Source: a virus. Taken from it: DNA of 57,549 nucleotides. The stretch is from IMG/VR virus record IMGVR_UViG_3300025000_000120, positions 1-57,549 of that record, one strand, 5' to 3'. Positions 29,788 through 40,603 of the stretch are shown piece by piece; within the stretch, counting starts at the first letter, position 1, and every line of letters starts with the position of its first letter. The notes under the pieces are model-generated. The model did not search any database. It saw nothing but the letters and a program-made list of their open reading frames with translations, and was not told where the DNA came from. Position numbers and translations under genes: made by a program.

Positions 29788-29792
29788 TGATA

Positions 29793-30130: not shown

Positions 30131-30200
30131 AGAATATGTAGGATTCGAACCTACGACACTTAGCTTACACTAATCGCTCTAGCCACTGAGCTAATATTCT
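30131..30200 (-). tRNA. tRNA-like RNA, possible Tyr(GUA), 6-nt anticodon loop
   Basis: A 7-bp acceptor stem (AGAATAT/ATATTCT), D-arm GCTC/GAGC with GG in the loop, and T-arm GTAGG-TTCGAAT-CCTAC are all present at tRNA spacing. The anticodon stem is TTAG/CTAA with a 6-base loop TGTAAG, one base short; read as U33 it gives GUA. No CCA is encoded and the variable loop is short, unlike bacterial Tyr tRNAs. Its first base lies where transcription from 30204-30232 should begin. The acceptor stem continues as an inverted repeat through the promoter -10. It may be a real or decoy tRNA. Confidence 0.55.
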
Positions 30201-30203
30201 TTC

Positions 30204-30232
30204 ATTATATAGTATGTAATTTTCGCGAGCAT
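30204..30232 (-). promoter_or_regulatory. Cassette promoter (for the tRNA-like RNA at 30131-30200)
   Basis: -35 ATGCTC, 17-base spacer, -10 TATAAT. The expected start point coincides with the 5-prime end of the tRNA-like RNA. Confidence 0.75.
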
Positions 30233-30601
30233 TCATCGATACCCATTTTTTTCGTTACGTAATTCCAGTACAACTACAGATCGACATTGGCTTATACTCA
30301 AACCAAACTTCATACCAATATCTTTGTAGGTGTATCCCGAGTCCCGCATTTGTTTAATGGCGATGTTTCGAGTTTTACATTTAGTTGATCCTCGCTCCTT
30401 TGCGTAGTTATGGGCACTCAATGGTTGGGTTATCTTTTCGATTTTTTTGGTGTCACCATTGGCATACATAATTACTCCAAACTTTTTTTCATAATTAGAT
30501 CTGATTTGTAATAGAGTCTTCACAACAGATATTAAATCGTCGTTGGAATCAATCTCCGTTGGGAGTTCCTGTTTTTTTCGATCCAGATAACGCTTCTTCA
30601 T
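30233..30601 (-). CDS. HTH protein
   Basis: A 122-residue basic protein. The C-terminus (RNIAIKQMRDSGYTYKDIGMKFGLSISQCRSVV) is a helix-turn-helix of the same style as those in the phage RNA polymerase (RLKAKGYSNVEIGKRMG). It overlaps the upstream 58-residue gene by 53 bases. Likely DNA-binding regulator; target unknown. Confidence 0.6.
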   Translation of the reverse strand: MKKRYLDRKKQELPTEIDSNDDLISVVKTLLQIRSNYEKKFGVIMYANGDTKKIEKITQPLSAHNYAKERGSTKCKTRNIAIKQMRDSGYTYKDIGMKFGLSISQCRSVVVLELRNEKNGYR

Positions 30602-30725
30602 CTCTAAAACAATAGTCTCCTTCCCAACAGCCCATTAGGGCTTCGACGCACTTACTACAGTCTTTAGGTAATATACCTTTAGTTGGTGATACTTGGCACT
30701 TTATGAGTTTAGACTTTTTTTTCAT
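30549..30725 (-). CDS. 58-residue Cys-containing protein
   Basis: An open frame from ATG behind AAGGAGG. Lysine-rich start, cysteines at 10, 23, 26, 33 and 39. It follows the ncRNA at 30756-30804 in the same transcript and overlaps the HTH gene out of frame. Confidence 0.6.
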   Translation of the reverse strand: MKKKSKLIKCQVSPTKGILPKDCSKCVEALMGCWEGDYCFRDEEALSGSKKTGTPNGD

Positions 30726-30755
30726 TAGTATCCTCCTTAAAATATGAGCAAAAAA

Positions 30756-30804
30756 GAAATGGCTAGGACTTACTCCTAGGTAGACTATTCAAACAGTCCA
30801 CTTC
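30756..30804 (-). ncRNA. D-armless tRNA-like small RNA
   Basis: 49 bases. Closing stem GAAGTGG/CCATTTC (7 bp, one G-U), an internal GACT/AGTC hairpin, and a CTAGG/CCTAG arm with a 7-base loop abutting the 3-prime closing strand as a T-arm would. No D-arm. The 5-prime end falls at the expected start point of the promoter at 30809-30837, and TTTCTTTTTT follows. Confidence 0.5.
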
Positions 30805-30808
30805 TTTC

Positions 30809-30837
30809 ATTATATAGTGCGTAATTCACGCGAGCAA
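30809..30837 (-). promoter_or_regulatory. Cassette promoter (for ncRNA 30756-30804)
   Basis: -35 TTGCTC, 17-base spacer GCGTGAATTACGCACTA, -10 TATAAT. A near-consensus copy. Confidence 0.8.
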
Positions 30838-30840
30838 AAA

Positions 30841-30911
30841 AGAAGTCCAAGCGAGAATTAACTCATTAGGTACTCTTGGATGTCCGTATGTCTAGCATAT
30901 AGAACTCTTCT
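30841..30911 (-). ncRNA. Structured small RNA between promoters
   Basis: 71 bases. AGAAG/CTTCT closes the molecule, TCCAAG/CTTGGA abuts the 3-prime closing strand, and TATG-CTAGA-CATA forms a small arm. A T run follows. No open frame. Layout as in the other RNA cassettes. Confidence 0.45.
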
Positions 30912-30915
30912 TTTC

Positions 30916-30944
30916 ATTATATAGTGTGTAATTTTCGCGAGAAA
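30916..30944 (-). promoter_or_regulatory. Cassette promoter (for ncRNA 30841-30911)
   Basis: -35 TTTCTC, 17-base spacer GCGAAAATTACACACTA, -10 TATAAT. Confidence 0.75.
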
Positions 30945-31006
30945 AATAATGGTTATTCAATATACCCGACTTGCGCCGATGGGAATCAAACCCACTAACA
31001 TTATCT
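30945..31006 (-). ncRNA. Cloverleaf small RNA, copy 1
   Basis: 62 bases, aligned without gaps to 39782-39843. Positions within the RNA: closing stem 3-7 with 57-61; arm 1 (12-16 with 24-28) with the T-loop TTTGATT; arm 2 (29-32 with 37-40) with a GCAA tetraloop; arm 3 (41-43, 45-47 with 51-56) with loop TGA. Differences between copies fall mostly as compensatory pairs in arms 2 and 3. A T run follows, so the closing stem may serve as terminator. Confidence 0.65.
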
Positions 31007-31009
31007 TTC

Positions 31010-31037
31010 ATTATACAGCATGTAATTTCGCGAGCAA
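31010..31037 (-). promoter_or_regulatory. Cassette promoter (for cloverleaf copy 1)
   Basis: -35 TTGCTC, 16-base spacer (the only copy one base short), -10 TATAAT. Confidence 0.75.
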
Positions 31038-31077
31038 AAAGAAATGCTAAGTTTCCTTAACAACTTCTCTTTATAAG

Positions 31078-31263
31078 TTAATCTTTATCCATACTTAGTT
31101 TCACATGTTCCGCCTTGAATCGTATCTTAATCATAGTTTCTTGGGTCTCTCCATTGTCGCTTGTTGTTGTGCTTGGAATATCAAATTCCATTTCACAGTT
31201 ACGTGCTTCGTATAAGACACCTTTTTTTATAATTGCTGATATAATTACATCGGTGATTTTCAT
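31078..31263 (-). CDS. Hypothetical cassette protein
   Basis: A 61-residue protein with alternating strands (TMIKIRFKAEHVKLSM). Single gene between promoter 31294-31322 and the cloverleaf RNA cassette. ATG behind AAAGGCGG. Confidence 0.55.
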   Translation of the reverse strand: MKITDVIISAIIKKGVLYEARNCEMEFDIPSTTTSDNGETQETMIKIRFKAEHVKLSMDKD

Positions 31264-31293
31264 ATGCTTTTCCGCCTTTCAAATATAACTTCT

Positions 31294-31322
31294 ATTATAG
31301 CGCATGTATCCTACGCGAGCAA
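31294..31322 (-). promoter_or_regulatory. Cassette promoter (for 31078-31263)
   Basis: -35 TTGCTC, 17-base spacer, -10 TATAAT. Confidence 0.8.
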
Positions 31323-31352
31323 AAAGAATAGAAGCTTAATAAGCTTCTATTC
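31320..31352 (-). terminator. Terminator of 31336-31569
   Basis: A 12-bp hairpin GAATAGAAGCTT with its complement and loop holding the stop codon TAA, then TTTTT. It runs straight into the next promoter. Confidence 0.8.
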
Positions 31353-31569
31353 TCCCTTTAATTCCAACAAAGCTTAATACTTTTAAATCATATTCTAATT
31401 TCTTAATAACCGACTTCTTACTGACGAATGTAATTTCAACTGTTCCATCAATCATGAGACATATGTCGATCGTTGTTCCCGATTTCTTATATGTTTCAAT
31501 GAGTTTTGTAACTTTCGAACTATCCCCGTTCAATACTCTTGTGATTACTTTAAATTCCTTAGTAAACAT
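31336..31569 (-). CDS. Hypothetical cassette protein
   Basis: A 77-residue beta/alpha protein. Its start FTKEFKVITRVL resembles that of 38695-38952 (IIEFRVITQLL), so the two cassettes may be distant paralogs. ATG behind AGGAGG; its last codons form the left arm of the terminator. Confidence 0.6.
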   Translation of the reverse strand: MFTKEFKVITRVLNGDSSKVTKLIETYKKSGTTIDICLMIDGTVEITFVSKKSVIKKLEYDLKVLSFVGIKGRIEAY

Positions 31570-31599
31570 GCTATATTCCTCCTAAATTTTATTTCTTTC

Positions 31600-31628
31600 A
31601 CTATATAGCATGTTACGTACGCGAGTCT
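31600..31628 (-). promoter_or_regulatory. Cassette promoter (for 31336-31569)
   Basis: -35 AGACTC, 17-base spacer, -10 TATAGT (one mismatch). Confidence 0.7.
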
Positions 31629-32097
31629 ATCGATTAGAATACGGACATCCACCAATGCCTGGATTGTCATCACACACGGGAACGTCATACTTGGCAAATA
31701 ACTTTCGTACACTACAATTACTCGGTAAATCGGAACAATTATTGCAAGCTACCATAGCTTTTTCACATAGATCTAATAAATCTGAAGTCTGGATTGGCGT
31801 GACGCTGTCAAGTTCTAACATTTGCTTATACTCACGTATTGCGTCGTTGCGGTACTTCAAAACAACATCCATTTTCTTAGACTGACTCATTAAATTATCG
31901 GATTCGAGATCATCCAACTGTTCACACTTTATACATAGTGCTCTGAATATAAACGATTTAGCCATTCGAAGGGCTTTGACAGAATCTTTATTGCCTATGT
32001 TCTTAGCCCATTCATCAGCCGTACCAGTTGCATAATCTATGAACGCCGATAAGGTTAAGACCTGGTTCTTCTCTAGTCGATTGAAATATGTTTTCAT
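31627..32097 (-). CDS. DUF5651-like protein
   Basis: A 156-residue helical protein (YFNRLEKNQVLTLSAFIDYATGTADEW) with a C-terminal Cys cluster (CNNCSDLPSNCSV...GGCPYS). I recall this as the DUF5651 phage family; no known function. ATG behind GTAGGAGGAGG. Confidence 0.65.
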   Translation of the reverse strand: MKTYFNRLEKNQVLTLSAFIDYATGTADEWAKNIGNKDSVKALRMAKSFIFRALCIKCEQLDDLESDNLMSQSKKMDVVLKYRNDAIREYKQMLELDSVTPIQTSDLLDLCEKAMVACNNCSDLPSNCSVRKLFAKYDVPVCDDNPGIGGCPYSNR

Positions 32098-32160
32098 CGT
32101 ACGCCTCCTCCTACTCTATACACGGTATAGTAACGGTCCAATGTGAAGCCACGGGTACAT

Positions 32161-32189
32161 AGTATATAATACCACCTCCACGCGAGCAA
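32161..32189 (-). promoter_or_regulatory. Cassette promoter (for 31627-32097)
   Basis: -35 TTGCTC, 17-base spacer, -10 TATACT. The most divergent spacer of the set. Confidence 0.65.
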
Positions 32190-32201
32190 AAGAGAAAAGG
32201 A

Positions 32202-32351
32202 TCAGCCCTCAAGGAGCTTTTCCAATTCATCTACTTGTTCCGTAAATCGCTTTTTAAATTCTTCAAATGTCAGCGAACAGGCTTCCGATTCGATAAAGGT
32301 TCTCAATTTTATAAGTACCTCATCTATTTCTTCAACCGTAATCTTTTTCAT
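32202..32351 (-). CDS. 49-residue acidic helical cassette protein
   Basis: An open frame from ATG behind AGGAGG. Heptad-like, rich in E and K. Its last codons form part of a GAAAAG/CTTTTC hairpin followed by a T-rich tract. Not recognised. Confidence 0.6.
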   Translation of the reverse strand: MKKITVEEIDEVLIKLRTFIESEACSLTFEEFKKRFTEQVDELEKLLEG

Positions 32352-32377
32352 AATAAAACCTCCTTCAATTTACTTTC

Positions 32378-32406
32378 ATTATACGGTATGTACCTAACGC
32401 GAGCAG
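32378..32406 (-). promoter_or_regulatory. Cassette promoter (for 32202-32351)
   Basis: -35 CTGCTC, 17-base spacer, -10 TATAAT. Confidence 0.8.
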
Positions 32407-32428
32407 AAAGAGAGAGACTAAGTCTCTC
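32404..32428 (-). terminator. Terminator of 32430-32651
   Basis: GAGAGAC-TTA-GTCTCTC followed by TCTTTCT, directly before the next promoter. Confidence 0.7.
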
Positions 32429-32429
32429 A

Positions 32430-32651
32430 TCAGTTTCCTAATAAAGTCTCTAACTCTCTCATAGCTCTTTCAAATCTTCTTGTGGCTTCCCCTCCTGTAT
32501 ATGTATCCGCGTCAGTACCAATGCGTTCGTGCCAGGTTATTGCTTCGGACGATACCATATAAATGTCATTTACAATGTCATTTTCATAATTTTCGTCTAT
32601 CATCTTTAACCGATACTTCATATTGATCTTCGTAACTTCTATCATATCCAT
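32430..32651 (-). CDS. Hypothetical cassette protein
   Basis: A 73-residue acidic, helical protein. ATG behind TGAGGAGG. No family recognised. Confidence 0.6.
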   Translation of the reverse strand: MDMIEVTKINMKYRLKMIDENYENDIVNDIYMVSSEAITWHERIGTDADTYTGGEATRRFERAMRELETLLGN

Positions 32652-32678
32652 AATAAAGGCCTCCTCAAATTTATTTTC

Positions 32679-32707
32679 ATTATGGAGTATGTAACTAACG
32701 CGAGTAA
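32679..32707 (-). promoter_or_regulatory. Cassette promoter (for 32430-32651)
   Basis: -35 TTACTC, 17-base spacer GCGTTAGTTACATACTC, -10 CATAAT. Confidence 0.7.
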
Positions 32708-32712
32708 TATGT

Positions 32713-33306
32713 CTACTTAATTTGCCAAAACACTATATCTCTTTTTTTTGTACCCACTTGCATTGGATATTTTGTGATTTCCAGCAATTTGTCAAATAAA
32801 TCGTAATTATATAGAGTTAACAAATCTCGTCTAATACATAATTTATTTATGCCATATCGCTTATTAAACACGTTCCAAAGATGAATGCCTTCCGACAAAT
32901 TCCCAGAACATGATAACAATGACACGGGATGTCTATACATATGCCTCAACGGTATTTTTAAATCCGAAGCTTCAAATATAAAGTCTCCATTCTTTTTAAT
33001 TTTAGCAACCATGTTATACTTTTGAAACTTATCGTATTGAATAGCGTTACTTATAATAAGTTTATATTGTTTACCCTGTGCCTCATCCCAGATCAAATCT
33101 AAATATTCATTATCTTGCTCTTTTGCCTTGTCAAATACATAAAAAGGCAGGTCTTCGGATATGTATTTATGATCTGTTCTTATGGTGCACAATCCAAACT
33201 TATCTATCAGATCCACGTACTCATCATATGTTTCGGGTATGTAAAATTGATGAATATTCAAATTTAATTCCATAATGCGATTAAGACTTTGAATTTTATC
33301 GAACAT
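32713..33306 (-). CDS. Hypothetical cassette protein
   Basis: A 197-residue protein, the largest single-gene product of the array, without recognised motifs. Unlike its neighbours it has no CTCGCG promoter. The ATG follows a run of six G and TATAAC, and the terminator of 33346-33531 ends just upstream. It may depend on read-through or on a divergent promoter. Confidence 0.6.
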   Translation of the reverse strand: MFDKIQSLNRIMELNLNIHQFYIPETYDEYVDLIDKFGLCTIRTDHKYISEDLPFYVFDKAKEQDNEYLDLIWDEAQGKQYKLIISNAIQYDKFQKYNMVAKIKKNGDFIFEASDLKIPLRHMYRHPVSLLSCSGNLSEGIHLWNVFNKRYGINKLCIRRDLLTLYNYDLFDKLLEITKYPMQVGTKKRDIVFWQIK

Positions 33307-33324
33307 GTTATACCCCCCATATAT

Positions 33325-33356
33325 CCATTGTGAGAAAAAGAAAACCTAAGCTTTCT
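33325..33356 (-). terminator. Terminator of 33346-33531
   Basis: GAGAAAGC-TTAG-GTTTTCTTTTTC: the stop TAG is in the loop and a T run follows. Confidence 0.75.
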
Positions 33357-33531
33357 CTGGTATAAGAGTTAAATGTTTATTGGACTTAAAGTTTATTTTG
33401 AATTCTTTAATTCCGTTTTGATGAGCAATATTGGTTACTAAATCCATAAGATAGTCTAATGATATAGTAACTCCTTCTCTACTCTCTAATTCAGCAACTA
33501 GTTCTTCGGTTGATATTTTTGATAAATCCAT
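33346..33531 (-). CDS. Hypothetical cassette protein
   Basis: A 61-residue protein, ATG behind AAAGGAG. It begins with a short acidic helix (ISTEELVAELES). The stop codon lies inside the terminator loop. Confidence 0.6.
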   Translation of the reverse strand: MDLSKISTEELVAELESREGVTISLDYLMDLVTNIAHQNGIKEFKINFKSNKHLTLIPEKA

Positions 33532-33549
33532 AATTACTCAACTCCTTTC

Positions 33550-33578
33550 ATTATATCGCATGTATCCATCGCGACCAA
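33550..33578 (-). promoter_or_regulatory. Cassette promoter (for 33346-33531)
   Basis: -35 TTGGTC, 17-base spacer, -10 TATAAT. Confidence 0.75.
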
Positions 33579-33605
33579 AAAGAAAGCCTAAACTTTCTCT
33601 CCTTT

Positions 33606-33836
33606 CTATAAAAGTGGTTTGTTTAGTATTGTTCTGATACTGGATTCGTTTATAAACATATTTTTGCTAATTTCGACATTAGACAGTCCTATACTCTTTA
33701 GTCTGGTTGCCTTGGCGTAAAGATCATTCATTAATTCCTCTTCGCCCTGACACGCTATACTTCTTAGTTTAGTTACTGTAATACCCATTCTTTTAGCAAC
33801 GTCTGCTTCACTTACTTCCAATGTACGTTCAATCAT
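33606..33836 (-). CDS. Stand-alone double-HTH protein, paralog of the RNA polymerase N-terminus
   Basis: A 76-residue protein of two HTH segments. It aligns with residues about 44-108 of the phage RNA polymerase. Shared features, in order, are an S-x-x-D-[IV]-A-K segment, T-x-L-R, RLK followed by G-x-SNVEI, and NESS-[VI]-R with a leucine soon after. I choose the ATG at 33836, because an upstream ATG lies inside the promoter spacer. It could compete with or modulate the polymerase at its promoters; that is inference. Confidence 0.7.
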   Translation of the reverse strand: MIERTLEVSEADVAKRMGITVTKLRSIACQGEEELMNDLYAKATRLKSIGLSNVEISKNMFINESSIRTILNKPLL

Positions 33837-33860
33837 ATTAAACACACGCCTTTCACTTTC

Positions 33861-33889
33861 ATTATAAAGCATGTTATGTACGCGAGGTC
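33861..33889 (-). promoter_or_regulatory. Cassette promoter (for 33606-33836)
   Basis: -35 GACCTC, 17-base spacer, -10 TATAAT. Preceded by the 40-base upstream element at 33881-33920. Confidence 0.8.
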
Positions 33890-33920
33890 TACCGATAACA
33901 GCCTACTACGCAGAACCGGC
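33881..33920 (-). promoter_or_regulatory. 40-base promoter-upstream element, copy A
   Basis: Shares GC..[GA]TTCTG[CT]GTAGTAG near the upstream end and ends ACCTCGCG. Same length as the elements at 38259-38298 and 39867-39906. Candidate operator or UP element. Confidence 0.55.
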
Positions 33921-33943
33921 AAAAAGAAAGCCTAAGCTTTCTC
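33921..33943 (-). terminator. Terminator of 33952-34281
   Basis: GAAAGC-TTAG-GCTTTC plus TTTTT, the clearest 6-bp form of the array terminator. It begins eight bases after the stop codon. Confidence 0.75.
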
Positions 33944-33951
33944 CGCTAGAC

Positions 33952-34281
33952 CTATAATTCTACCTCATGGTAATTTCCGTTATCGAGATCACTCATTGTT
34001 GCGAGGAACGCTTCGGATACCGTAATATCACTATTAACCGGTAAATCTAACGTCCATCCAATACCTGAGCCTTGCTCGTTTCCTTGAAACCAATGAATAG
34101 AATAATCAGGTTCCTTTGCGGGAATCTCTACGACTTCTTCTTCTTTCTTAGTGTTTAGGCCAATTGTTATTAGAGCTAAAACCCCCATTCCAACGATAAT
34201 CCCAGCTGCTATGACCTTTTCTTTGTGGTTGTTCCACAAGACCTTAGCCTGTTCTTTCACTGATAATTTGTTTTTAATCAT
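33952..34281 (-). CDS. Single-pass membrane protein
   Basis: A 109-residue protein. Basic cytoplasmic start, one transmembrane helix (about residues 19-40), and a soluble domain containing YSIHWFQGNEQGSGIGWTLDLP. ATG behind GAGGT. Confidence 0.6.
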   Translation of the reverse strand: MIKNKLSVKEQAKVLWNNHKEKVIAAGIIVGMGVLALITIGLNTKKEEEVVEIPAKEPDYSIHWFQGNEQGSGIGWTLDLPVNSDITVSEAFLATMSDLDNGNYHEVEL

Positions 34282-34301
34282 AATACAAATACCTCACTTT
34301 C

Positions 34302-34330
34302 ATTATGACGTATGTAACAGTCGCGATCCT
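34302..34330 (-). promoter_or_regulatory. Cassette promoter (for 33952-34281)
   Basis: -35 AGGATC, 17-base spacer, -10 CATAAT. Overlaps the stop of the gene upstream. Confidence 0.7.
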
Positions 34331-34481
34331 ATCGATCCTCCGTTCGCATGATTAATGTGAATATAGCGGTGGCTCTAGCCTTAAGTTCCTCATTCGTAAG
34401 GTCTGATAGTAATTCGATACATAAACGATCATGTTCGGCATATAGCTCGGCATAGGTCATGGTATAAGAATCTTTCGTCAT
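34329..34481 (-). CDS. 50-residue small protein
   Basis: An open frame whose ATG overlaps the stop of the MazG-like gene (TGATG), with GGAGGA before it. It is helical (YAELYAEHDRLCIELLSDLTNEELKARA in two parts). Translationally coupled. Confidence 0.6.
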   Translation of the reverse strand: MTKDSYTMTYAELYAEHDRLCIELLSDLTNEELKARATAIFTLIMRTEDR

Positions 34482-34780
34482 CACACGTCCTCCACCAACA
34501 CTAATGTTTTTCTGTTAACGGCATAAGACATATACTTTAAAACACGTTGTTTCTTCCGCTGTATTAAATTATCATTATCAAGAATAGGAATAAGACATTC
34601 TTCTTTAAGCATTTCAAATACCCCAAGAAGATCTCCAAACTCAATAGCGATTTTTTCAGCAGTATTAATATCACTCTTCCATTTATCATCAAGGCCAAAT
34701 CGTAAAGCTTTTGCGGCTTCTTTTTGAATTTCTGAACATTCTTCAATTAAACAGGTTAATAAATGTTCGGTTTTATTCAT
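34481..34780 (-). CDS. MazG-like protein
   Basis: A 99-residue helical protein: LIEECSEIQKEAAKALRFGLDD...IAIEFGDLLGVFEML. This is the phage MazG-like pattern with an acidic metal site. Second such gene in the window. ATG behind AAGGAGG. Confidence 0.7.
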   Translation of the reverse strand: MNKTEHLLTCLIEECSEIQKEAAKALRFGLDDKWKSDINTAEKIAIEFGDLLGVFEMLKEECLIPILDNDNLIQRKKQRVLKYMSYAVNRKTLVLVEDV

Positions 34781-34826
34781 AATATCCTCCTTATTAATTT
34801 TTAGACTTAGACATTAACCTAAAGTA

Positions 34827-35009
34827 CTATTCGTTAACCCCATATACAAATATCCAATTCTCTGCACGAGTCTCATAATATACACGATCGTCCACACGTA
34901 CGTCAAAGTACTTAATTCCGTTTTTTTCATAGACGGCCACTACAATTCCACTAAACTCGTTGTTGATATTTTTTACCTCATCTTGATAGCCTGGTAATGT
35001 TACACTCAT
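34827..35009 (-). CDS. SH3-like small protein
   Basis: A 60-residue beta-rich protein (FSGIVVAVYEKNGIKYFDVRVDD). ATG behind AGGAGGAG. Unknown role, within the nucleotide-metabolism block. Confidence 0.6.
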   Translation of the reverse strand: MSVTLPGYQDEVKNINNEFSGIVVAVYEKNGIKYFDVRVDDRVYYETRAENWIFVYGVNE

Positions 35010-35022
35010 AGTTATACTCCTC

Positions 35023-35556
35023 CTAAATGCCTTTTATTTTGCATGCTATCATATCTGCCATGTGGGAATACAGAACATTCGGATAACGATCAATGGCTCT
35101 ACCATAATATGCCCATTTATTGGTATCTTTTTCATAAGAACCCATATGCCATCTTATACACGCTACTTCTTCGTCCGTAAGATCCATATATTTTTGAAGG
35201 TATATAACCGACTTCTCCCCATGACCATCAATAAGGAGTTGATCATTGTACTTATATGGATGTTCCCCATCGGGCGTTTTGATATAGTTGTCAATTTTAC
35301 ATAGATCATGGAATAACCCAACGATCAACGGTGATTCTGGACGTTGCCATTTCAAGCCCATACCTATTGTTAGTTTCTGTAACGTGTCATAAACCTCGTA
35401 GCTGTGGTCAAATAACCCGCCCTCGTAACTTCCATGACGCTTCGTACTTGCTGGTGCGGTTAGGAATTCGGCTATTGGGAATTTACCATTCGTGAGAACT
35501 CCTAGTTTACCATAAGTTAAAGCTCTAAATTTGTCATATCTATCATCGAAATTCAC
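35023..35556 (-). CDS. HD-domain phosphohydrolase
   Basis: A 177-residue protein with H...FHDLCKI (the HD pair) and a later DGHGEKS element, typical of phage HD hydrolases acting on nucleotides. The length is close to that of DatZ-type dATPases, but the same outline occurs in many uncharacterised phage HD proteins. GTG start behind AAGGAGGTG. Confidence 0.7.
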   Translation of the reverse strand: MNFDDRYDKFRALTYGKLGVLTNGKFPIAEFLTAPASTKRHGSYEGGLFDHSYEVYDTLQKLTIGMGLKWQRPESPLIVGLFHDLCKIDNYIKTPDGEHPYKYNDQLLIDGHGEKSVIYLQKYMDLTDEEVACIRWHMGSYEKDTNKWAYYGRAIDRYPNVLYSHMADMIACKIKGI

Positions 35557-35558
35557 AA

Positions 35559-35795
35559 TTACACCTCCTTCCTTAGAATATGATTCCGGAATTCATGATC
35601 ATCACTTATTTCACTAGCGCGTAATATTTGTAGCGTCATCCAAGTGGCGATATAACCCTTTTGGTTTAGATATTTCTTACCTTCGGTGACATCCATTTTC
35701 CACATAACGCCAACGACTTCTCTAGGGGCATTCGTTATTAAGACATTATGTGCATCATATATGAAGGCTCTACAACTATCTAAGTCTCCCTGCAT
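35559..35795 (-). CDS. Paralog of 37212-37406
   Basis: A 78-residue protein nearly collinear with the gene at 37212-37406 (CRAFIYDAHNVLITNAPREVVGVMW versus CKAFIYDEHNVLITNAPREVVAVMW). The two copies flank the deaminase and diphosphohydrolase genes. The last codons (LRKEV) encode the SD site of the HD gene. Confidence 0.65.
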   Translation of the reverse strand: MQGDLDSCRAFIYDAHNVLITNAPREVVGVMWKMDVTEGKKYLNQKGYIATWMTLQILRASEISDDHEFRNHILRKEV

Positions 35796-35798
35796 TAA

Positions 35799-36203
35799 TT
35801 ACACCTCTTTCCTTAAAATATGGTTCCACAACACGCCTTTGATATAAACATTTTTAATACCAGCGTTGACAATCATTCGACGGCACATAAAGCAGGGTTC
35901 GTCCGTAACATAAATATCCGCACCATCAATCGATATACCATGTCTCGCGGCTTGAATGATTGCATTTGCTTCAGCGTGCACACTTTTGCATAATTCGTAA
36001 CGTTCGCCGGGTTTAACCCTTAGTCGTTCACGCTCACACACCACACAGTGCGCTTCACCCATAGGGGTTCCATTATATCCACTACTTAATATTAGTCTAT
36101 CTTTCACGATTATAGCACCCACGTTACGACGTAAACACGTTGATCTAGTCGCCACTGTCTTAGCAAGTAATGCAAAGTATTCACTCCATGATGGTCTAGT
36201 CAA
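35799..36203 (-). CDS. dCMP/ComE-type deaminase
   Basis: A 134-residue zinc deaminase: HAEANAI supplies the catalytic glutamate and a zinc ligand, and PCFMCRR the other ligands. The N-terminus SWSEYFALLAKTVATRSTC is typical. I favour a TTG start behind AGAAGGTG; a GTG six codons upstream is the alternative. It would make dUMP from dCMP. Confidence 0.8.
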   Translation of the reverse strand: MTRPSWSEYFALLAKTVATRSTCLRRNVGAIIVKDRLILSSGYNGTPMGEAHCVVCERERLRVKPGERYELCKSVHAEANAIIQAARHGISIDGADIYVTDEPCFMCRRMIVNAGIKNVYIKGVLWNHILRKEV

Positions 36204-37191
36204 GTTTACGCACCTTCTCACTAGTAATTGGATTTATCAGATATACGTCTCCCATATTTTCTCTTATCCATTGAATTTTATCATCCGATGGTATTGGTCC
36301 ATATTTATCCTCGACGAGCTTAATAAGATTTATCAGATATACGTCTCCCATATTTTCTCTTATCCATTGAATTTTATCATCCGATGGTATTGGTCCATAT
36401 TTATCCTCGATGAGCTTAATAAGATTTATAGACATCCCTCCATATTTACGATTTGTTTCAATTTCACCCAACATGCTTTTTAAATTAGAAACATGTTTGT
36501 CGACACCATCTAACATTTTTAATGTTTTCTGATTAGACTCTTCTCCATTAAGGTTTTCTTCTCTCATCAATATGTCATTATTTTTCTTAATGATCCCCTT
36601 TCTTAAATCAAAATTAAATAGAGATCGTTCGGGCTTAGATCTTGATGGAATATCCTGTAATTCAGGATGCTTTTCTTCTATCCACATAGCACCAATAATA
36701 TTCCACGCAGCAGCAACAAGATGATCCTCGTCCGTCTGCCCATCAACACATTTTAATAGATGTCGAATTCCACTATCTATAAAACTACTAATCGGAAGAC
36801 CTTTTTCCCAATTTCTCGGGGCATATTTTACTGCGCCAGCCTCATAATGCTTCGAAAGACGTAATAATGCACATGCTGGATATGATGAATATTTTGGAAT
36901 ATCTATTGATTTTTTTTCTTCCATATACATGGCATCTATTAAATCACATGCGGCCGCGCAAAGATGATCATGATTTGTTTCGCCATCTAGATAAAACATC
37001 AATCGGATCAACGAATCATCCAACATAGAGCAAAACGATACATTATCGTTAAGTCTTCTGGCATTAGCCCGATATTGAGATATTCTCAATAGAGCCGCCG
37101 CCGGTAATAGATCACATCGACCCTTACCTTCACTCATATCACGTACGGCACCACTTTCAAATTCTCGTCTATCGCCACTGTCTTTTAACAT
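36196..37191 (-). CDS. dATP/dGTP diphosphohydrolase-like protein with duplicated tail motif
   Basis: A 331-residue protein. Residues 1-190 hold a doubled dGTP_diPhyd_N-like module: FESGAVRDMSEGKGRCDLLP...HLCAAACDLIDAMYMEE, then YEAGAVKYAPRNWEKG...HLVAAAWNIIGAMWIEEKHPELQDIP. After a charged coiled linker come two 32-residue repeats LIKLVEDKYGPIPSDDKIQW. These resemble the LIRIVEDKMGTIPAIDKVQW motif of the tail protein at 43765-48897. Nucleotide-pool function is inferred from the family. Confidence 0.65.
   Translation of the reverse strand: MLKDSGDRREFESGAVRDMSEGKGRCDLLPAAALLRISQYRANARRLNDNVSFCSMLDDSLIRLMFYLDGETNHDHLCAAACDLIDAMYMEEKKSIDIPKYSSYPACALLRLSKHYEAGAVKYAPRNWEKGLPISSFIDSGIRHLLKCVDGQTDEDHLVAAAWNIIGAMWIEEKHPELQDIPSRSKPERSLFNFDLRKGIIKKNNDILMREENLNGEESNQKTLKMLDGVDKHVSNLKSMLGEIETNRKYGGMSINLIKLIEDKYGPIPSDDKIQWIRENMGDVYLINLIKLVEDKYGPIPSDDKIQWIRENMGDVYLINPITSEKVRKLD
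36233..36424. repeat. 96-bp tandem direct repeat
   Basis: Two copies (36233-36328, 36329-36424) differing at about one base, inside the coding region of 36196-37191 and in frame (32 codons each). A recent duplication. Confidence 0.9.
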
Positions 37192-37211
37192 AGTATAAAC
37201 ATCTCTCTTTC

Positions 37212-37406
37212 TCAAACTACTTCACTGGAACGTAATCGTTGTAAGGTCATCCACGTAGCCACATAACCTTTTTGTGTTAGATTTTTCAAACCTTCGGTAA
37301 CGTCTAAATGCCACATAACCGCAACAACTTCCCTAGGCGCATTGGTTATCAAGACGTTATGCTCGTCATATATGAATGCCTTACACTTATCTAAATCTTC
37401 TTGCAT
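37212..37406 (-). CDS. Paralog of 35559-35795
   Basis: A 64-residue protein. See the paralog for shared residues; this copy lacks the C-terminal extension. ATG behind AAAGGAG. Function unknown. Confidence 0.65.
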   Translation of the reverse strand: MQEDLDKCKAFIYDEHNVLITNAPREVVAVMWHLDVTEGLKNLTQKGYVATWMTLQRLRSSEVV

Positions 37407-37680
37407 GGCAATATCTCCTTTCTTAAACTTAGAATATAAATTACTAATGTGGCATAGAACATAGCATCAGATACATTGTTCCCGTAAAACTGAAGTTAGT
37501 GTTGGTCGAATTTGTAACTTCTCTCCAAGTTCTCTTTTCGAAGAAATTCACATCTCACATTTTAGACCCTATCTTTTTATTAACGAGTTAACCCGATATA
37601 ACAACGATCATAGCCGCTACGCCCATCAAAACACCTGTAAAATATACTGGTTCCTTCTTTCAAAATATGGCTTAGTGAGA
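37407..37680 (-). other. Gene-poor stretch with ORF remnants
   Basis: No SD-supported gene. Frames such as PVYFTGVLMGVAAMIVVISG (no start codon) and SDAMFYATLVIYILSLRKE (no start codon) look like decayed small membrane genes. Confidence 0.4.
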
Positions 37681-37685
37681 AAAAA

Positions 37686-37774
37686 GAAATAGCTGTACGT
37701 AGGTCCGGTTTGACTCTTAATCTTCATCTCCTACTGTTATCGCCAGGGACTTAATGCCCTATACTCGCTTATTC
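37686..37774 (-). ncRNA. Structured small RNA between promoter and T run
   Basis: About 89 bases with no open frame. GTAGG/CCTAC closes a large arm, and AGGG/CCCT a small one. The ends (AATAAGC and GCTATTTC) only partly pair. TTTTTT follows. It belongs to the same cassette type as the tRNA-like RNAs but is less well defined. Confidence 0.4.
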
Positions 37775-37778
37775 TTTC

Positions 37779-37807
37779 ATTATATAGTATGTAATTTTCG
37801 CGAGCAA
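37779..37807 (-). promoter_or_regulatory. Cassette promoter (for ncRNA 37686-37774)
   Basis: -35 TTGCTC, 17-base spacer GCGAAAATTACATACTA, -10 TATAAT. Confidence 0.8.
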
Positions 37808-37832
37808 AAAGAAAGAGTCTAAGCTCTCTCAG
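37806..37832 (-). terminator. Terminator of the 37819 frame
   Basis: GAGAGAG-CTTAGA-CTCTTTC (one G-U), stop TAG in the loop, TTTTT after. Confidence 0.7.
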
Positions 37833-37974
37833 ATTCAATTGCTTCTGTAACAACATTATCGCTCAGCGTAAGATAGACATAGTCCTTTGGATTAGGACCT
37901 TCTCTGAATATGGCGAACGTTTCATTGTTATCGGCATTTAAGTCTAAGAGTTCTTTAACTCTTTCTAAATTTAT
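37819..37974 (-). pseudogene. Cassette frame without start codon or SD
   Basis: An intact frame ending NPKDYVYLTLSDNVVTEAIESERA, with its own promoter (37978-38006) and terminator. No ATG, GTG or TTG lies in frame and no SD site is present downstream of the promoter. It probably lost its start region; a non-standard start is the alternative. Confidence 0.45.
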
Positions 37975-37977
37975 TTC

Positions 37978-38006
37978 ATTATAGAATATGTTACGTACGC
38001 GAGCAA
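37978..38006 (-). promoter_or_regulatory. Cassette promoter (for 37819-37974)
   Basis: -35 TTGCTC, 17-base spacer, -10 TATAAT. Confidence 0.8.
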
Positions 38007-38029
38007 AAAGAAAGCCTAAGCTTCCTCCT
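38004..38029 (-). terminator. Terminator of 38016-38207
   Basis: GAAGC-TTAG-GCTTTC with the stop in the loop, then TTTTT. Confidence 0.65.
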
Positions 38030-38207
38030 TATCAATAAGTTTATTAATAATATGGGCTTTTATATCATTCAGTTCTGTAGCACTTGGTATCGAATTTCCG
38101 TCCTCATCCAAAACTTCCATTTTAAAGTTTTCAATTTTAAATTGTTTTGCGTTCTCGATATTTACATCAATTAGTACCTCTGCTACTGCTACGATTTTTA
38201 CTTTCAT
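38016..38207 (-). CDS. Hypothetical cassette protein
   Basis: A 63-residue protein, ATG behind AAGGAGG. The longer frame starts within the promoter -10 and is rejected. It ends EEA because its last codons are the terminator arm. Confidence 0.6.
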   Translation of the reverse strand: MKVKIVAVAEVLIDVNIENAKQFKIENFKMEVLDEDGNSIPSATELNDIKAHIINKLIDKEEA

Positions 38208-38238
38208 GATAATCCTCCTTATTTTATAAATTTCTTTC

Positions 38239-38267
38239 ATTATATGGAATGTAATTCACGCGAGGTC
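38239..38267 (-). promoter_or_regulatory. Cassette promoter (for 38016-38207)
   Basis: -35 GACCTC, 17-base spacer, -10 TATAAT, with the 40-base upstream element. Confidence 0.8.
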
Positions 38268-38298
38268 TCATGACAACCATCTACTACACAGAATGGGC
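38259..38298 (-). promoter_or_regulatory. 40-base promoter-upstream element, copy B
   Basis: Same length as copies A and C and ends ACCTCGCG. Matches copy A closely through TTCTG[CT]GTAGTAG. Confidence 0.55.
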
Positions 38299-38305
38299 TA
38301 GAAGG

Positions 38306-38370
38306 GAAGATGTGTACATGGATATTCTCCCGTACGTATCAGTCTACTATTTTCGACTAATATCATCTTC
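38306..38370 (-). ncRNA. Structured small RNA with 7-bp closing stem
   Basis: GAAGATG/CATCTTC closes 65 bases. Inside are AGTC/GACT and GTACGG...CC..GTAC arms. The 5-prime end lies at the expected start point of promoter 38372-38400. No T run follows, so transcription may continue through element B. Confidence 0.45.
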
Positions 38371-38371
38371 T

Positions 38372-38400
38372 ATTATAGAGTAGGTTACGTACGCGAGCAG
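38372..38400 (-). promoter_or_regulatory. Cassette promoter (for ncRNA 38306-38370)
   Basis: -35 CTGCTC, 17-base spacer, -10 TATAAT. Confidence 0.8.
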
Positions 38401-38409
38401 AAAGAAAGC

Positions 38410-38616
38410 CTAAGCTTCCTCTACGTCTGATATAATTTTAGCGGCGATAATTGTTCCAATTATTAATCCTGCTGTAGCGCTTATAAACGCGCACGCAAAC
38501 CCCTTCCACCAACCTTCATCAAAGCACTTCTTTTTTAATTGTTGTACTTCAAATTCGTTTGTTGGAATAGTCTCACATTCCTCTGTTTGTAGGTGATGCA
38601 TTCTTATCATTTTCAT
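38410..38616 (-). CDS. Small C-terminal-anchored membrane protein
   Basis: A 68-residue protein: soluble His- and Glu-containing start, one C-terminal transmembrane helix (CAFISATAGLIIGTIIAAKII), ending EEA in the terminator. The ATG at 38616 follows GGAG; the longer frame would start in the promoter. Confidence 0.6.
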   Translation of the reverse strand: MKMIRMHHLQTEECETIPTNEFEVQQLKKKCFDEGWWKGFACAFISATAGLIIGTIIAAKIISDVEEA

Positions 38617-38643
38617 AATATCAATCTCCTTTAAATTTATTTC

Positions 38644-38672
38644 ATTATATAGCAGGTTATCCACGCGAGCAG
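38644..38672 (-). promoter_or_regulatory. Cassette promoter (for 38410-38616)
   Basis: -35 CTGCTC, 17-base spacer, -10 TATAAT. Confidence 0.8.
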
Positions 38673-38694
38673 AAAGAAAGCCTAAGCTTCCTTC

Positions 38695-38952
38695 TCACAT
38701 TAAGGTCTTAAATCCTTCGTAAATTATTTCTGTCATTTTTTGTTGAACTTTAAAATTCTGATAATCCTGTTCTCTACCTTGGCAGCATAATACGTACACC
38801 TTTGATACTAGTGATCCATCTGAATCTGAAACTACTTCCGACTCTCTCAAGTCGAGTACTTTAAATTCATTGGCTCTAAGTATCCTGGTTACACTTATTA
38901 CTGCCTTTTCTAACAACTGAGTTATCACTCTAAATTCAATTATTTTAGTCAT
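38695..38952 (-). CDS. Hypothetical cassette protein
   Basis: An 85-residue beta/alpha protein beginning MTKIIEFRVITQLL, similar to the start of 31336-31569. I choose the second ATG because the first is one base from AGGAGG. The array-type terminator lies just after the stop. Confidence 0.6.
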   Translation of the reverse strand: MTKIIEFRVITQLLEKAVISVTRILRANEFKVLDLRESEVVSDSDGSLVSKVYVLCCQGREQDYQNFKVQQKMTEIIYEGFKTLM

Positions 38953-38982
38953 AATCATTCCTCCTATATTTTGCTTAATGTC

Positions 38983-39011
38983 ATTATGGTGTATGCAAAT
39001 ATCGCGAGCAG
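38983..39011 (-). promoter_or_regulatory. Cassette promoter (for 38695-38952)
   Basis: -35 CTGCTC, 17-base spacer, -10 CATAAT. Confidence 0.75.
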
Positions 39012-39020
39012 AAAGAAAGC

Positions 39021-39254
39021 CTAAGCTTCCTCGATGTTTTCTGCTACTTCGTAGAATTTCCCATCGATTTCAATTATGCTTCCATCTTTTAAACCTTGTT
39101 TAATTTTCTTGTTGAATTTCACTTCGTTAATAACATTGCCAACTCCAACAGCAACATGCCCTATAGCACTAAATGCAATTCCAACTACTGCTGGCACTAC
39201 TACTAATACTACAAAACCCATTACTGCTAGGTCTACGATATCTTTATCTTTCAT
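39021..39254 (-). CDS. Small membrane protein
   Basis: A 77-residue protein: one long hydrophobic segment (LAVMGFVVLVVVPAVVGIAFS) and a soluble tail. ATG behind GAAGGAA. Ends EEA in the terminator hairpin. Confidence 0.6.
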   Translation of the reverse strand: MKDKDIVDLAVMGFVVLVVVPAVVGIAFSAIGHVAVGVGNVINEVKFNKKIKQGLKDGSIIEIDGKFYEVAENIEEA

Positions 39255-39286
39255 GATAATTCCTTCTTTCAAATTAAATTTATTTC

Positions 39287-39315
39287 ATTATAGAATATGT
39301 TACGTACGCGAGCAA
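39287..39315 (-). promoter_or_regulatory. Cassette promoter (for 39021-39254)
   Basis: -35 TTGCTC, 17-base spacer, -10 TATAAT. Spacer identical to that at 37978-38006. Confidence 0.8.
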
Positions 39316-39339
39316 AAAGAAAGAAACCTATTTGGCTTC
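39313..39339 (-). terminator. Terminator of 39328-39456
   Basis: GAAGCC-AAATA-GGTTTC (one G-U) with the stop TAG spanning the end of the loop, then TTTTT. Confidence 0.65.
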
Positions 39340-39456
39340 TCCCCATGTCAATACCTTGGATGTTTCGTTAGCTATTACTATACTCGCCATTGCTACTACC
39401 ATTACTAAAGAAACTCCAGCGAGTCCTCCTAAAATAGTTTTTGCAATATTCTTCAT
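39328..39456 (-). CDS. 42-residue membrane protein
   Basis: An open frame from ATG behind AAAGAGGG: one transmembrane helix (LAGVSLVMVVAMASIVI) and a short polar tail. The same cassette layout as its neighbours supports it. Confidence 0.6.
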   Translation of the reverse strand: MKNIAKTILGGLAGVSLVMVVAMASIVIANETSKVLTWGEAK

Positions 39457-39485
39457 AATAAATTCCCTCTTTCAAGTTTATTTTC

Positions 39486-39514
39486 ATTATATAGCACGTA
39501 ATTCACGCGAGCAA
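39486..39514 (-). promoter_or_regulatory. Cassette promoter (for 39328-39456)
   Basis: -35 TTGCTC, 17-base spacer, -10 TATAAT. Preceded by the T run of an upstream terminator. Confidence 0.8.
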
Positions 39515-39577
39515 AAAAAGAAACCTAAGTTCCTTCATTATGCTATTTAGTGATTTGTAATATACTCGTTCATTGTA

Positions 39578-39712
39578 TTATTTCATATTTACTGCGTTGT
39601 TACGTCTGTGATTCACTACTACCGTTGCTATTATCGCAAAGGCTACAATCAATCCTGCTGTAATTCCTACAGTAGTCATGGTTAATGCTACTTGTTGAAC
39701 TTTAATATACAT
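39578..39712 (-). CDS. 44-residue membrane protein
   Basis: An open frame from ATG behind AGGAG: one transmembrane helix (VGITAGLIVAFAIIATVVV) then a basic tail. Cassette layout as in the neighbours. Confidence 0.6.
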   Translation of the reverse strand: MYIKVQQVALTMTTVGITAGLIVAFAIIATVVVNHRRNNAVNMK

Positions 39713-39745
39713 ATTAATCGCTCCTTTTATTTACATAATTCTTCT

Positions 39746-39774
39746 ATTATATAATGCATAATGGACGCGAGCAA
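39746..39774 (-). promoter_or_regulatory. Cassette promoter (for 39578-39712)
   Basis: -35 TTGCTC, 17-base spacer, -10 TATAAT. Confidence 0.8.
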
Positions 39775-39781
39775 AAAAAAA

Positions 39782-39843
39782 AATAATGGCAATCCAATTA
39801 ACCCAGTTTTCACTGATGGGAATCGAACCCACTAACATTATCT
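39782..39843 (-). ncRNA. Cloverleaf small RNA, copy 2
   Basis: 62 bases, same fold as 30945-31006. Arm 1 has the canonical T-loop TTCGATT, arm 2 CAGT-GAAA-ACTG (GNRA loop), arm 3 GGT/GCC with AAT/ATT. Eleven T follow the closing stem. Changes relative to copy 1 preserve pairing in arms 2 and 3. Confidence 0.65.
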
Positions 39844-39846
39844 TTC

Positions 39847-39875
39847 ATTATATAATGTGTAATTCACGCGAGGTA
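39847..39875 (-). promoter_or_regulatory. Cassette promoter (for cloverleaf copy 2)
   Basis: -35 TACCTC, 17-base spacer GCGTGAATTACACATTA, -10 TATAAT, with the 40-base upstream element. Confidence 0.8.
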
Positions 39876-39906
39876 TGATAACCACTATCTGTCACGCAGA
39901 ACGAGC
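39867..39906 (-). promoter_or_regulatory. 40-base promoter-upstream element, copy C
   Basis: Starts GCTCGTTCTGCGT and ends ACCTCGCG; the middle is more divergent than in copies A and B. Confidence 0.5.
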
Positions 39907-39913
39907 AAAAAAA

Positions 39914-39987
39914 AGAAGCGACGGGTTCGAACCGCATTTCTCTGGTAGATATACCAGCGCTTTAACTTTTAAGCTAAATTTTCTTCT
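39914..39987 (-). tRNA. Degenerate tRNA-like RNA
   Basis: 74 bases. D-arm GCTT/AAGC, anticodon-type arm CTGGT/ACCAG with a 6-base loop ATATCT, and T-arm GCGG-TTCGAAC-CCGT are in order. The closing stem AGAAG/CTTCT has only 5 bp and the acceptor register is 4 bases off normal. Eight T follow. With U33 the anticodon would read AUC, which is not a usual one. Likely a tRNA mimic or decaying tRNA rather than a working one. Confidence 0.5.
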
Positions 39988-39990
39988 TTC

Positions 39991-40019
39991 ATTATGTAGT
40001 ATGTAATACACGCGAGCAG
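39991..40019 (-). promoter_or_regulatory. Cassette promoter (for 39914-39987)
   Basis: -35 CTGCTC, 17-base spacer GCGTGTATTACATACTA, -10 CATAAT. Confidence 0.8.
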
Positions 40020-40028
40020 AAAGAAAGC

Positions 40029-40190
40029 CTAAGCTTCCCTCCCGACAATGTCATGAATAATCGGTCTTTTGTTTTTAACATTCATTGTATCTATTATGTC
40101 GAATATCTTTTTGTTAGCATCTTTTCGTCCTTGCCAGTAACATGTACCAGCAATCGTCAAACCTACAATCAATAACCATAATGTTTTCAT
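40029..40190 (-). CDS. 53-residue membrane-anchored protein
   Basis: An open frame from ATG behind AAAGGAG. N-terminal hydrophobic segment (LWLLIVGLTIAGTCYW) then a basic tail ending GREA in the terminator hairpin. Cassette layout as elsewhere. Confidence 0.6.
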   Translation of the reverse strand: MKTLWLLIVGLTIAGTCYWQGRKDANKKIFDIIDTMNVKNKRPIIHDIVGREA

Positions 40191-40227
40191 AATGTTAATC
40201 TCCTTTCAAAATTATCATAACACTTTC

Positions 40228-40256
40228 ATTATAGTATATGTTTTGGATGCGAATCG
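40228..40256 (-). promoter_or_regulatory. Cassette promoter, divergent (for 40029-40190)
   Basis: -35 CGATTC, 17-base spacer with GCATCC in place of GCG, -10 TATAAT. Confidence 0.55.
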
Positions 40257-40257
40257 A

Positions 40258-40288
40258 GCAAAAAGAGAAGGCATGTTTTACACACGCC
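40258..40288 (-). terminator. Terminator of 40278-40571
   Basis: GGCGTGT-GTAAA-ACATGCC with the stop TAA in the loop, then TTCTCTTTTT. Confidence 0.75.
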
Positions 40289-40571
40289 CCTTAATGATAA
40301 ACCCTAACGCTTTCGTAGTTATTACTCCAGCTTGTTCAAATCCCAATATCAGTGCTATGCCCAATAGATTACCTGCTATGATCAGAATCGTGTCTTTCTT
40401 TATTTTCTGTTCGCGTTTTATCGCGTCCATTTTATAAAGCTTTTCAAGATTATCGGTCATATTTTTGTATTCCGCTGAGTCTGGCTGATGTTGTTTCATA
40501 ATTTCCAAGACTGCTGCAATTTCTGCTTCAAGCGCCGTTTGTTTATTCTTTTTGGTGAATTTCTTAAACAT
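40278..40571 (-). CDS. Small membrane protein with coiled coil
   Basis: A 97-residue protein: basic start, a helical coiled-coil-like part (LEAEIAAVLEIMKQHQ), then two hydrophobic stretches at the C-terminus. ATG behind GGAGAG. First gene of the array in transcription order. Confidence 0.6.
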   Translation of the reverse strand: MFKKFTKKNKQTALEAEIAAVLEIMKQHQPDSAEYKNMTDNLEKLYKMDAIKREQKIKKDTILIIAGNLLGIALILGFEQAGVITTKALGFIIKGRV

Positions 40572-40603
40572 TTGCGTTCTCTCCTTCAAGATTTTATTCT
40601 TTC

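Follow-up and report, generated by a model that had tools for sequence, protein, structure and literature searches.

Two small phage RNAs with a circularly permuted tRNA arm order as candidate decoys for host factors that grip the tRNA elbow

The arms of a tRNA follow one another in the order acceptor, D, anticodon and T, with 2, 1, 4-5 and 0 nt between arms. A 57.5-kb phage record in IMG/VR (IMGVR_UViG_3300025000_000120, positions 1 to 57,549; this whole stretch of 57,549 nt is hereafter called the window) is predicted to encode two copies of a small RNA that carries these arms in a circularly permuted order. Both copies share with tRNA (Rfam RF00005) a 5-bp T-arm with a TTYGATT loop, a D-arm with a UUGR loop, a predicted pair between positions 19 and 56, a 4-nt variable loop and a junction of 0 nt between T-stem and acceptor. 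Unlike tRNA, they are permuted, their acceptor is a capped stem of 4 bp, and they have neither an anticodon loop nor a CCA end.

Several described systems resemble these RNAs in part. Permuted tRNA genes of algae and archaea have the circular permutation of tRNA order in common with them, but those genes are processed to normal tRNAs, whereas the copies hold no acceptor, CCA or anticodon to recover. The tRNA-like domain of transfer-messenger RNA (tmRNA) likewise combines a T-arm and a D-loop without an anticodon loop; the copies differ in having no CCA-bearing acceptor, no mRNA-like part and no pseudoknots. Plant viral tRNA-like structures, for example that of turnip yellow mosaic virus (TYMV), are also viral mimics of the tRNA elbow with non-tRNA connectivity, but they form the 3' end of an RNA genome and can be aminoacylated, whereas the RNAs considered here would be separate small RNAs of a DNA phage without an acceptor. 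Among bacterial RNAs, the yjdF riboswitch is a tRNA-like aptamer with a D/T-type elbow related to that of tRNA (PMC9142559); it is a ligand-dependent cis-acting mRNA leader in tRNA order, in contrast to the permuted copies, which are predicted to be free-standing. Defence-evading phage tRNAs (PMC10264068, PMC11555353) resemble the present set in being phage tRNA-type RNAs with altered anticodon loops and a possible tie to tRNA nucleases. They are working tRNAs with point changes, whereas the mimics described here are anticodon-free and could not replace a lost tRNA. No account of phage tRNA mimics that are permuted or have no anticodon turned up in a literature search that covered few subscription papers or preprints. 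The set of free-standing elbow RNAs to which the copies belong is apparently undescribed, and represents a variant of viral tRNA mimicry, which is itself known.

Two copies of an RNA with permuted arm order

Both copies lie on the minus strand, copy 1 running from 31007 to 30944 and copy 2 from 39844 to 39781. An earlier, sequence-only reading had described the pair as aligning without gaps, which they do, with differences at 12 of 64 columns when the RNA is read from the minus strand. Its description of transcripts that run from a promoter start point to a T-run was likewise borne out. The motif CTCGC....ATTAC....TATAATG, with up to three mismatches tolerated, has 17 matches in the window compared with 0.01 expected by shuffling; the promoter of copy 2 (39846-39872, minus strand) matches it exactly, and that of copy 1 (CTCGCGAAATTACATGCTGTATAATG, 31009-31034, minus strand) matches with a spacer one base shorter than the consensus. 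T-runs close both RNAs, at 30942-30946 in copy 1 and 39773-39783 in copy 2, and each of them adjoins the next promoter, leaving a transcript without an open reading frame (ORF). Copy 1 is the first of three tandem promoter-RNA cassettes, the others lying behind promoters at 30915 and 30808, and a further tRNA-like RNA with its own promoter (30128-30202) sits past an ORF from this run.

From 5' to 3', the predicted fold consists of a closing helix (P1) of at least 7 bp, a 4-nt linker, a T-arm of 5 bp with the loop TTYGATT, a 4-bp arm capped by GNRA, a 5-bp arm that has a single bulged base and the loop UUGRA, and the second strand of P1. In copy 1, the 5' strand of P1 (31000-31006) takes the position of the 3' side of a tRNA anticodon stem and contributes 7 pairs that are invariant across copies. 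It is followed by the T-arm GTGGG-TTTGATT-CCCAT (30979-30995), the acceptor stub CGGC-GCAA-GTCG (30967-30978), the D-arm GGTATATTGAATAACC with the loop UUGAA (30951-30966) and the 3' strand of P1, which runs into the terminal T-run (30942-30950). The corresponding elements of copy 2, also on the minus strand, are the 5' strand of P1 (39837-39843), the T-arm GTGGG-TTCGATT-CCCAT (39816-39832), the stub CAGT-GAAA-ACTG (39804-39815), the D-arm GGTTAATTGGATTGCC with the loop UUGGA (39788-39803) and the 3' strand of P1 with the terminal T-run (39773-39787).

When a tRNA is read from its anticodon stem, the order is the 3' strand of that stem, the variable loop, the T-arm, the acceptor after 0 nt, the D-arm and the 5' strand of the anticodon stem, and both copies match it. 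As predicted from the sequence, the arm order of both copies is an exact circular permutation of that of tRNA (T, acceptor, D, anticodon). The acceptor is shortened to 4 pairs under a GNRA cap (GCAA or GAAA), the linker in the place of the variable loop has 4 nt, and the transcript ends occupy the place of the anticodon loop. Junction lengths are tRNA-like with two exceptions: acceptor and D-arm lack the 2-nt joint between them, and the single nucleotide that separates D-arm from anticodon stem is absent. The D-loop of copy 2, AAUUGGAU, fits the tRNA D-loop pattern A-R-Y-Y-G-G, and the T-arm of the same copy is letter-identical to that of a canonical-order RNA, L069(-)10971, in the relative G027. 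The sequence-only reading had correctly placed the TTYGATT T-loop in the position of a tRNA D-arm and recognised a non-tRNA arm order; all of its structural points stood, while the exact circular permutation, the identity of the third arm as a D-arm, the covariation of positions 56 and 19 and the clade-wide set described below had been missed.

By their sequence the copies are not working tRNAs. Without an anticodon, a complete acceptor stem or a CCA end, they cannot decode. The 5-bp T-arm with the T-loop consensus (GTGGG-TTYGATT-CCCAT) is present in both, and the arm order acceptor-D-anticodon-T, the 7-nt anticodon loop and the 7-bp acceptor with CCA are absent from both. Neither Rfam RF00005 nor ARAGORN detects them, and no known family in the Rfam scan matches them, in agreement with the earlier statement that their class was not recognised. 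Identity with tmRNA was rejected: the best tmRNA likeness in the Rfam scan was a weak T-arm-only match of 15 nt (12.1 bits), ARAGORN found no tmRNA, and there is no tag-ORF domain. A blastn search of the region and of copy 2 against known phages returned no homologue.

A clade-wide set of anticodon-less tRNA-like RNAs

Relatives were gathered by DNA polymerase (45 loci) and by promoter (45 stretches). The promoter family occurs in 29 of 47 records, nearly always on one strand, and a reversed control pattern gave 1 match. Downstream of this promoter, the relatives carry either small ORFs or closed non-coding RNAs with a T-run at the end, and 22 of 70 closed promoter-driven RNAs contain a T-arm, compared with 0.48 expected from dinucleotide shuffles. 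Most of the T-arm RNAs keep tRNA order and are abnormal at the anticodon position, where the loop is UUCG (L069), GAAA (L069, L130, L070), GCAA (L066, L092), ACAA (L161) or UAUC (39907-39989 in the window), and elsewhere has 5-6 or 9-15 nt. No 7-nt anticodon loop was found among the folded canonical-order members, in which only T- or D-loops have 7 nt; for ordinary tRNAs elsewhere in these phages (e.g., Leu, Lys, Met, Ile), a normal anticodon is called. Most of the promoter-driven tRNA-like RNAs are either overlooked or wrongly named by ARAGORN. What the set has in common is the T-arm, mostly with a D-arm, and the anticodon loop is systematically absent. The two copies have the clade promoter, a closed RNA, a T-run, a T-arm and no 7-nt anticodon loop, and these sequence features place them, as one variant, in a set of anticodon-less tRNA mimics that extends across the clade.

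The promoter itself, as CTCGC.....T.ACA.....TATAATG, is conserved in phages of Arthrobacter, Gordonia, Streptomyces, Microbacterium and uncultured hosts, and is looser in Lactococcus phages. It marks an early region of one-gene cassettes in the window (26682-40629) and in its relatives.

Permuted arm orders also occur outside the window. A scan of 1.5 Mb for a T-arm placed right after the 5' closing strand gave 13 candidates, compared with 3 in reversed sequence, and several of these candidates turned out to have canonical arm order. The members that are cleanly permuted, other than the window copies, represent three RNA families (G003, L153 and L149/L218). In G003, the RNA at L084(-)7993 runs P1, 4 nt, T-arm ACGG-UUCAAUU-CCGU, 6 nt, ACAG-UGGU-CUGU, 1 nt, P1. 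The one contig found by a promoter scan of a genome collection, from a metagenome-assembled genome (MAG), carries an RNA at L153(+)635 with the T-arm CUGGG-UUCGAAU-CCCAG, 6 nt, the D-arm GUGC-AAAGGUA-GCAC, 1 nt and P1, if its 9-bp bulged form is taken. In both, the linkers have the lengths of a 4-nt variable loop and a single nucleotide at position 26. In the third family, the RNA at L149(-)10325 has the T-arm UCACG-UUCGAUU-CGUGA and the stub CCAC-GUGG, then AUUGGAG, and its orthologue at L218(+)9708 differs by 4 changes in ~80 nt. Together with the window copies, the permuted group comprises five distinct RNAs and one orthologue. L218 was reached through relatives of a DUF6353 paralogue encoded at 19168 in the window; the DUF6353 protein at 28963 has no relatives in IMG/VR. 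In G001, with a polymerase up to 73% identical, covariance model R1 finds nothing, and the predicted RNA repertoire differs between near relatives. Pattern searches yielded only candidates that were rejected: the IMG/VR match to the geometry of the window copies is one ordinary tRNA (L059), and matches to the L153 geometry are ordinary tRNAs then AAAGGTAG, and coding sequence.

Related RNAs are also present, unannotated, in cultured phages. They were found in Lactococcus phages P078, P092, P118, P162, 1706, CHPC971 and P1046, in Faecalibacterium phage FP_oengus, and in Gordonia phage OhMyWard, where the anticodon position of the RNA reads CCGC-ACAA-GCGG. An unannotated T-arm RNA without an anticodon arm is present in Arthrobacter phages Tatanka and Inked. 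At L157:10708-10820 and L175:7070-7180 (Lactococcus phages CHPC971 / 1706), a tRNA-like core lies inside two extra outer helices, unlike other members.

The decoy proposal and its alternatives

We propose, with about even confidence for and against, that the two copies are promoter-driven early phage RNAs whose permuted tRNA elbow acts as a decoy for a host factor that grips elbows. Each copy would be a free-standing early RNA made of the closing helix, the 4-nt linker, the T-arm, the GNRA-capped stub, the D-arm and the closing helix. This RNA would accumulate in infection and compete with real tRNA for a factor gripping the T-loop/D-loop face, the most plausible target being a tRNA-targeting defence or toxin. 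Having no anticodon, the decoy may be immune to anticodon nucleases with its elbow still on offer. Candidate tRNA-targeting defences include anticodon nucleases, retron effectors and Septu (PMC10264068, PMC11555353, PMC13096335). Single-gene cassettes are numerous in the early region, which also encodes, at 20343-21236, a homologue of Tad5, an inhibitor of type I Thoeris (PF25190, E = 2e-32).

The elbow on which this proposal depends can be compared between the two copies. The cloverleaf has 22 pairs if T-loop position 56 is counted as paired with D-loop position 19, and each of them can form in both copies; the pair-preserving changes that the sequence-only reading had listed in arms 2 and 3 are as it described them. 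Four changes are two-sided (columns 31-40, 33-38 and 46-54 and the elbow pair, 20-51, which is C-G in one copy and U-A in the other), two are wobble changes (columns 39 and 55), and two fall at unpaired positions (column 35, the N of GNRA, and column 45, the bulge). All 12 differences between the copies fit the cloverleaf, and each slid register fails. Change is concentrated in the stub and D-arm (11 of 26 positions) as opposed to P1, the linker and the T-arm (1 of 38; Fisher p = 9e-5). Nearest-neighbour folding of the full transcript of copy 1 gives the cloverleaf, with a T-arm probability of ~0.8.

The observed covariation comes from two sequences and is matched in 35 of 500 shuffles; the compensatory support claimed earlier stands insofar as the four two-sided changes fit, but because of these shuffles it is weak alone and amounts to support, not proof. 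The support for the fold comes from the relatives rather than from the covariation of two copies. Several observations weigh against the proposal. For copy 2, nearest-neighbour folding prefers a rod formed by pairing between the T-arm and D-arm regions, and gives the T-arm a probability of 0.02. Among 47 polymerase relatives, covariance model R1 recovered the window copies and, within ordinary tRNAs, two matches (E 0.39) limited to the T-arm, and the earlier suggestion of a search seeded with both copies produced no further full-length permuted match in these related records. On 45 further records R1 gave weak matches only, with a best E of 0.006 and an E of 0.9 for W12, those in Lactococcus phages being canonical-order RNAs. 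Some members of the set are without the D-loop GG, and the elbow may be unequal in quality across members. Finally, many different host factors bind elbows, candidates including RNase P, the L1 stalk and tRNA-modifying enzymes (PMC4810234).

If the rod were the true structure, with arm 2 as its cap, the likeness to tRNA would be a relic or chance and the copies would be ordinary small regulatory or protein-binding RNAs. The rod is the minimum-free-energy fold of copy 2 and has near-equal energy in copy 1; it should be noted that energy models ignore the contact between T-loop and D-loop. The helix specific to the rod shows 0 two-sided changes and 1 broken pair, compared with 4 two-sided changes and 0 broken pairs for the cloverleaf with its elbow pair, and in the rod the T-stem strand CCCA, which is fully conserved, stays unpaired. 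Moreover, the T-arm-first RNAs of G003, L153 and L149/L218 fold with a T-arm by energy alone, and T-arms are ~45-fold above expectation in the promoter-driven RNA class. We consider the rod unlikely and the cloverleaf favoured for both copies, less securely for copy 2.

With the cloverleaf retained, the mimic could instead block a general host tRNA machine, for example RNase P or the ribosomal E site, both of which stack on the 19-56 pair, and so shut down translation or the maturation of host tRNAs. It is precisely this G19-C56 face that is recognised by RNase P RNA, the L1 stalk and T-box RNAs (PMC4810234). However, RNase P and CCA enzymes also measure the full acceptor/T stack, where the copies have a capped 4-bp stub, and the variety among close relatives suggests varied targets and not one conserved enzyme. 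A block of this kind probably does not explain the RNAs.

It is still less probable that the RNAs are functionless, being decayed tRNA pseudogenes or structured spacers between promoters. The tRNA ancestry evident in many members and the lack of conservation of the exact RNA in the nearest relatives would suit decay. The stems and T-loops are intact, though, stable tetraloops replace anticodons, the closing stems reach the promoter start and the T-run, P1 and T-arm are frozen between the copies, and L149/L218 keep their RNA with few changes.

A cis-acting element, either a tRNA-like riboswitch of the yjdF type or a T-box leader, has a precedent in the D/T elbow of the yjdF aptamer (PMC9142559) and appears very improbable, since the T-run ends the transcript ahead of the next promoter with no ORF aboard, no Rfam riboswitch family matches in the region at E up to 1, and yjdF is in tRNA order. 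A permuted tRNA gene, circularised and cut into a working tRNA in the manner known from some algae and archaea, would suit the truly circularly permuted arm order and is the hardest to credit, given that there is no 7-bp acceptor, no CCA or addition site and no anticodon, that the acceptor end is GNRA-closed, that the closing stem exceeds the length of an anticodon stem, and that no RNA ligase was found among the window proteins scanned, the sole ligase being an ATP-dependent DNA ligase.

Other RNAs and genes, and what the mimics may mean

The window contains further closed RNAs on its minus strand, each behind its own promoter. At 39907-39989 (promoter 39990-40016) lies a degenerate tRNA with a T-arm and CTGGTA-TATC-TACCAG at the anticodon position, which scores 25.5 bits as an Rfam tRNA, below the gathering threshold of 29. 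The RNA at 30128-30202 (promoter 30203-30229), called tRNA-Leu(UAA) by ARAGORN, has a short type I body and a 4- to 6-nt loop at the anticodon position; it is the only annotated-type tRNA of the window, and with this abnormal anticodon hairpin it is probably also a mimic and not a decoding tRNA. The other RNAs are those of ~79 nt at 30836-30914 (promoter 30915-30941), of ~58 nt at 30750-30807 (promoter 30808-30834), with a T-loop-like hairpin and then a GUAA-capped hairpin, and of ~98 nt at 37680-37777 (promoter 37778-37804), and one at 38306-38370 (promoter 38371-38397) with the 7-bp closing stem GAAGATG/CATCTTC, for which a similar stretch, L065(+)17803, occurs in the relative G025.

A second recurrent RNA class uses the same promoter and consists of conserved GACACGAAUGU, a hairpin and CC, with a distal GUUCGUYG/UUUUCGUUGG that may pair with ACGAA. 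It is common to Arthrobacter, Gordonia and uncultured phages (L155:6987-7070, L160:4477-4560, L156:5652-5760, L064(-)7364, L110(-)4916, L111(+)3229, L147(-)6704, L075(+)3010 and L121(+)66), and is possibly more conserved than the tRNA mimics. The same promoter also precedes a structured RNA of 140 nt at L090(-)17667 (G036), with stretches recalling group I intron cores (GACUACAAGUC-like end).

Among the protein genes, DUF6353 (PF19880) paralogues occur in the early region at 19168-20103 and 28963-29787, and several are also present in Faecalibacterium phage FP_oengus. A 954-aa protein encoded at 261-3125 matches phrog_4291, annotated as an RNA-dependent RNA polymerase, and is possibly a single-chain phage RNA polymerase; Lactococcus phage CHPC971 carries a gene with the same annotation. 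The protein encoded at 15958-16545 has a Germane (sporulation/germination) domain, which hints at a spore-forming Firmicute host.

Free-standing elbow-only phage RNAs, some of them permuted, are absent from Rfam as well as from the literature searched. Tentatively, and with less confidence than we place in a decoy role for the two copies themselves, they may represent an unrecognised class of counter-defence RNA, in which one large siphovirus group infecting Actinobacteria and Firmicutes would use elbow-only RNAs in normal, anticodon-deleted or permuted form to titrate factors that attack or sense tRNA. The mimics escape standard tRNA finders or are misnamed by them, and have consequently gone unannotated in well-known phages. 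The decoy idea is testable at once because culturable phages of Lactococcus lactis, Arthrobacter, Gordonia and Faecalibacterium carry RNAs of this kind. If the RNAs are decoys, phages would have in them a general RNA-based means of countering the numerous tRNA-directed defences and toxins of bacteria, and each RNA would serve as a bait for an unknown tRNA-binding factor. The permuted RNAs provide, in addition, a natural experiment on the parts of tRNA needed for an elbow.

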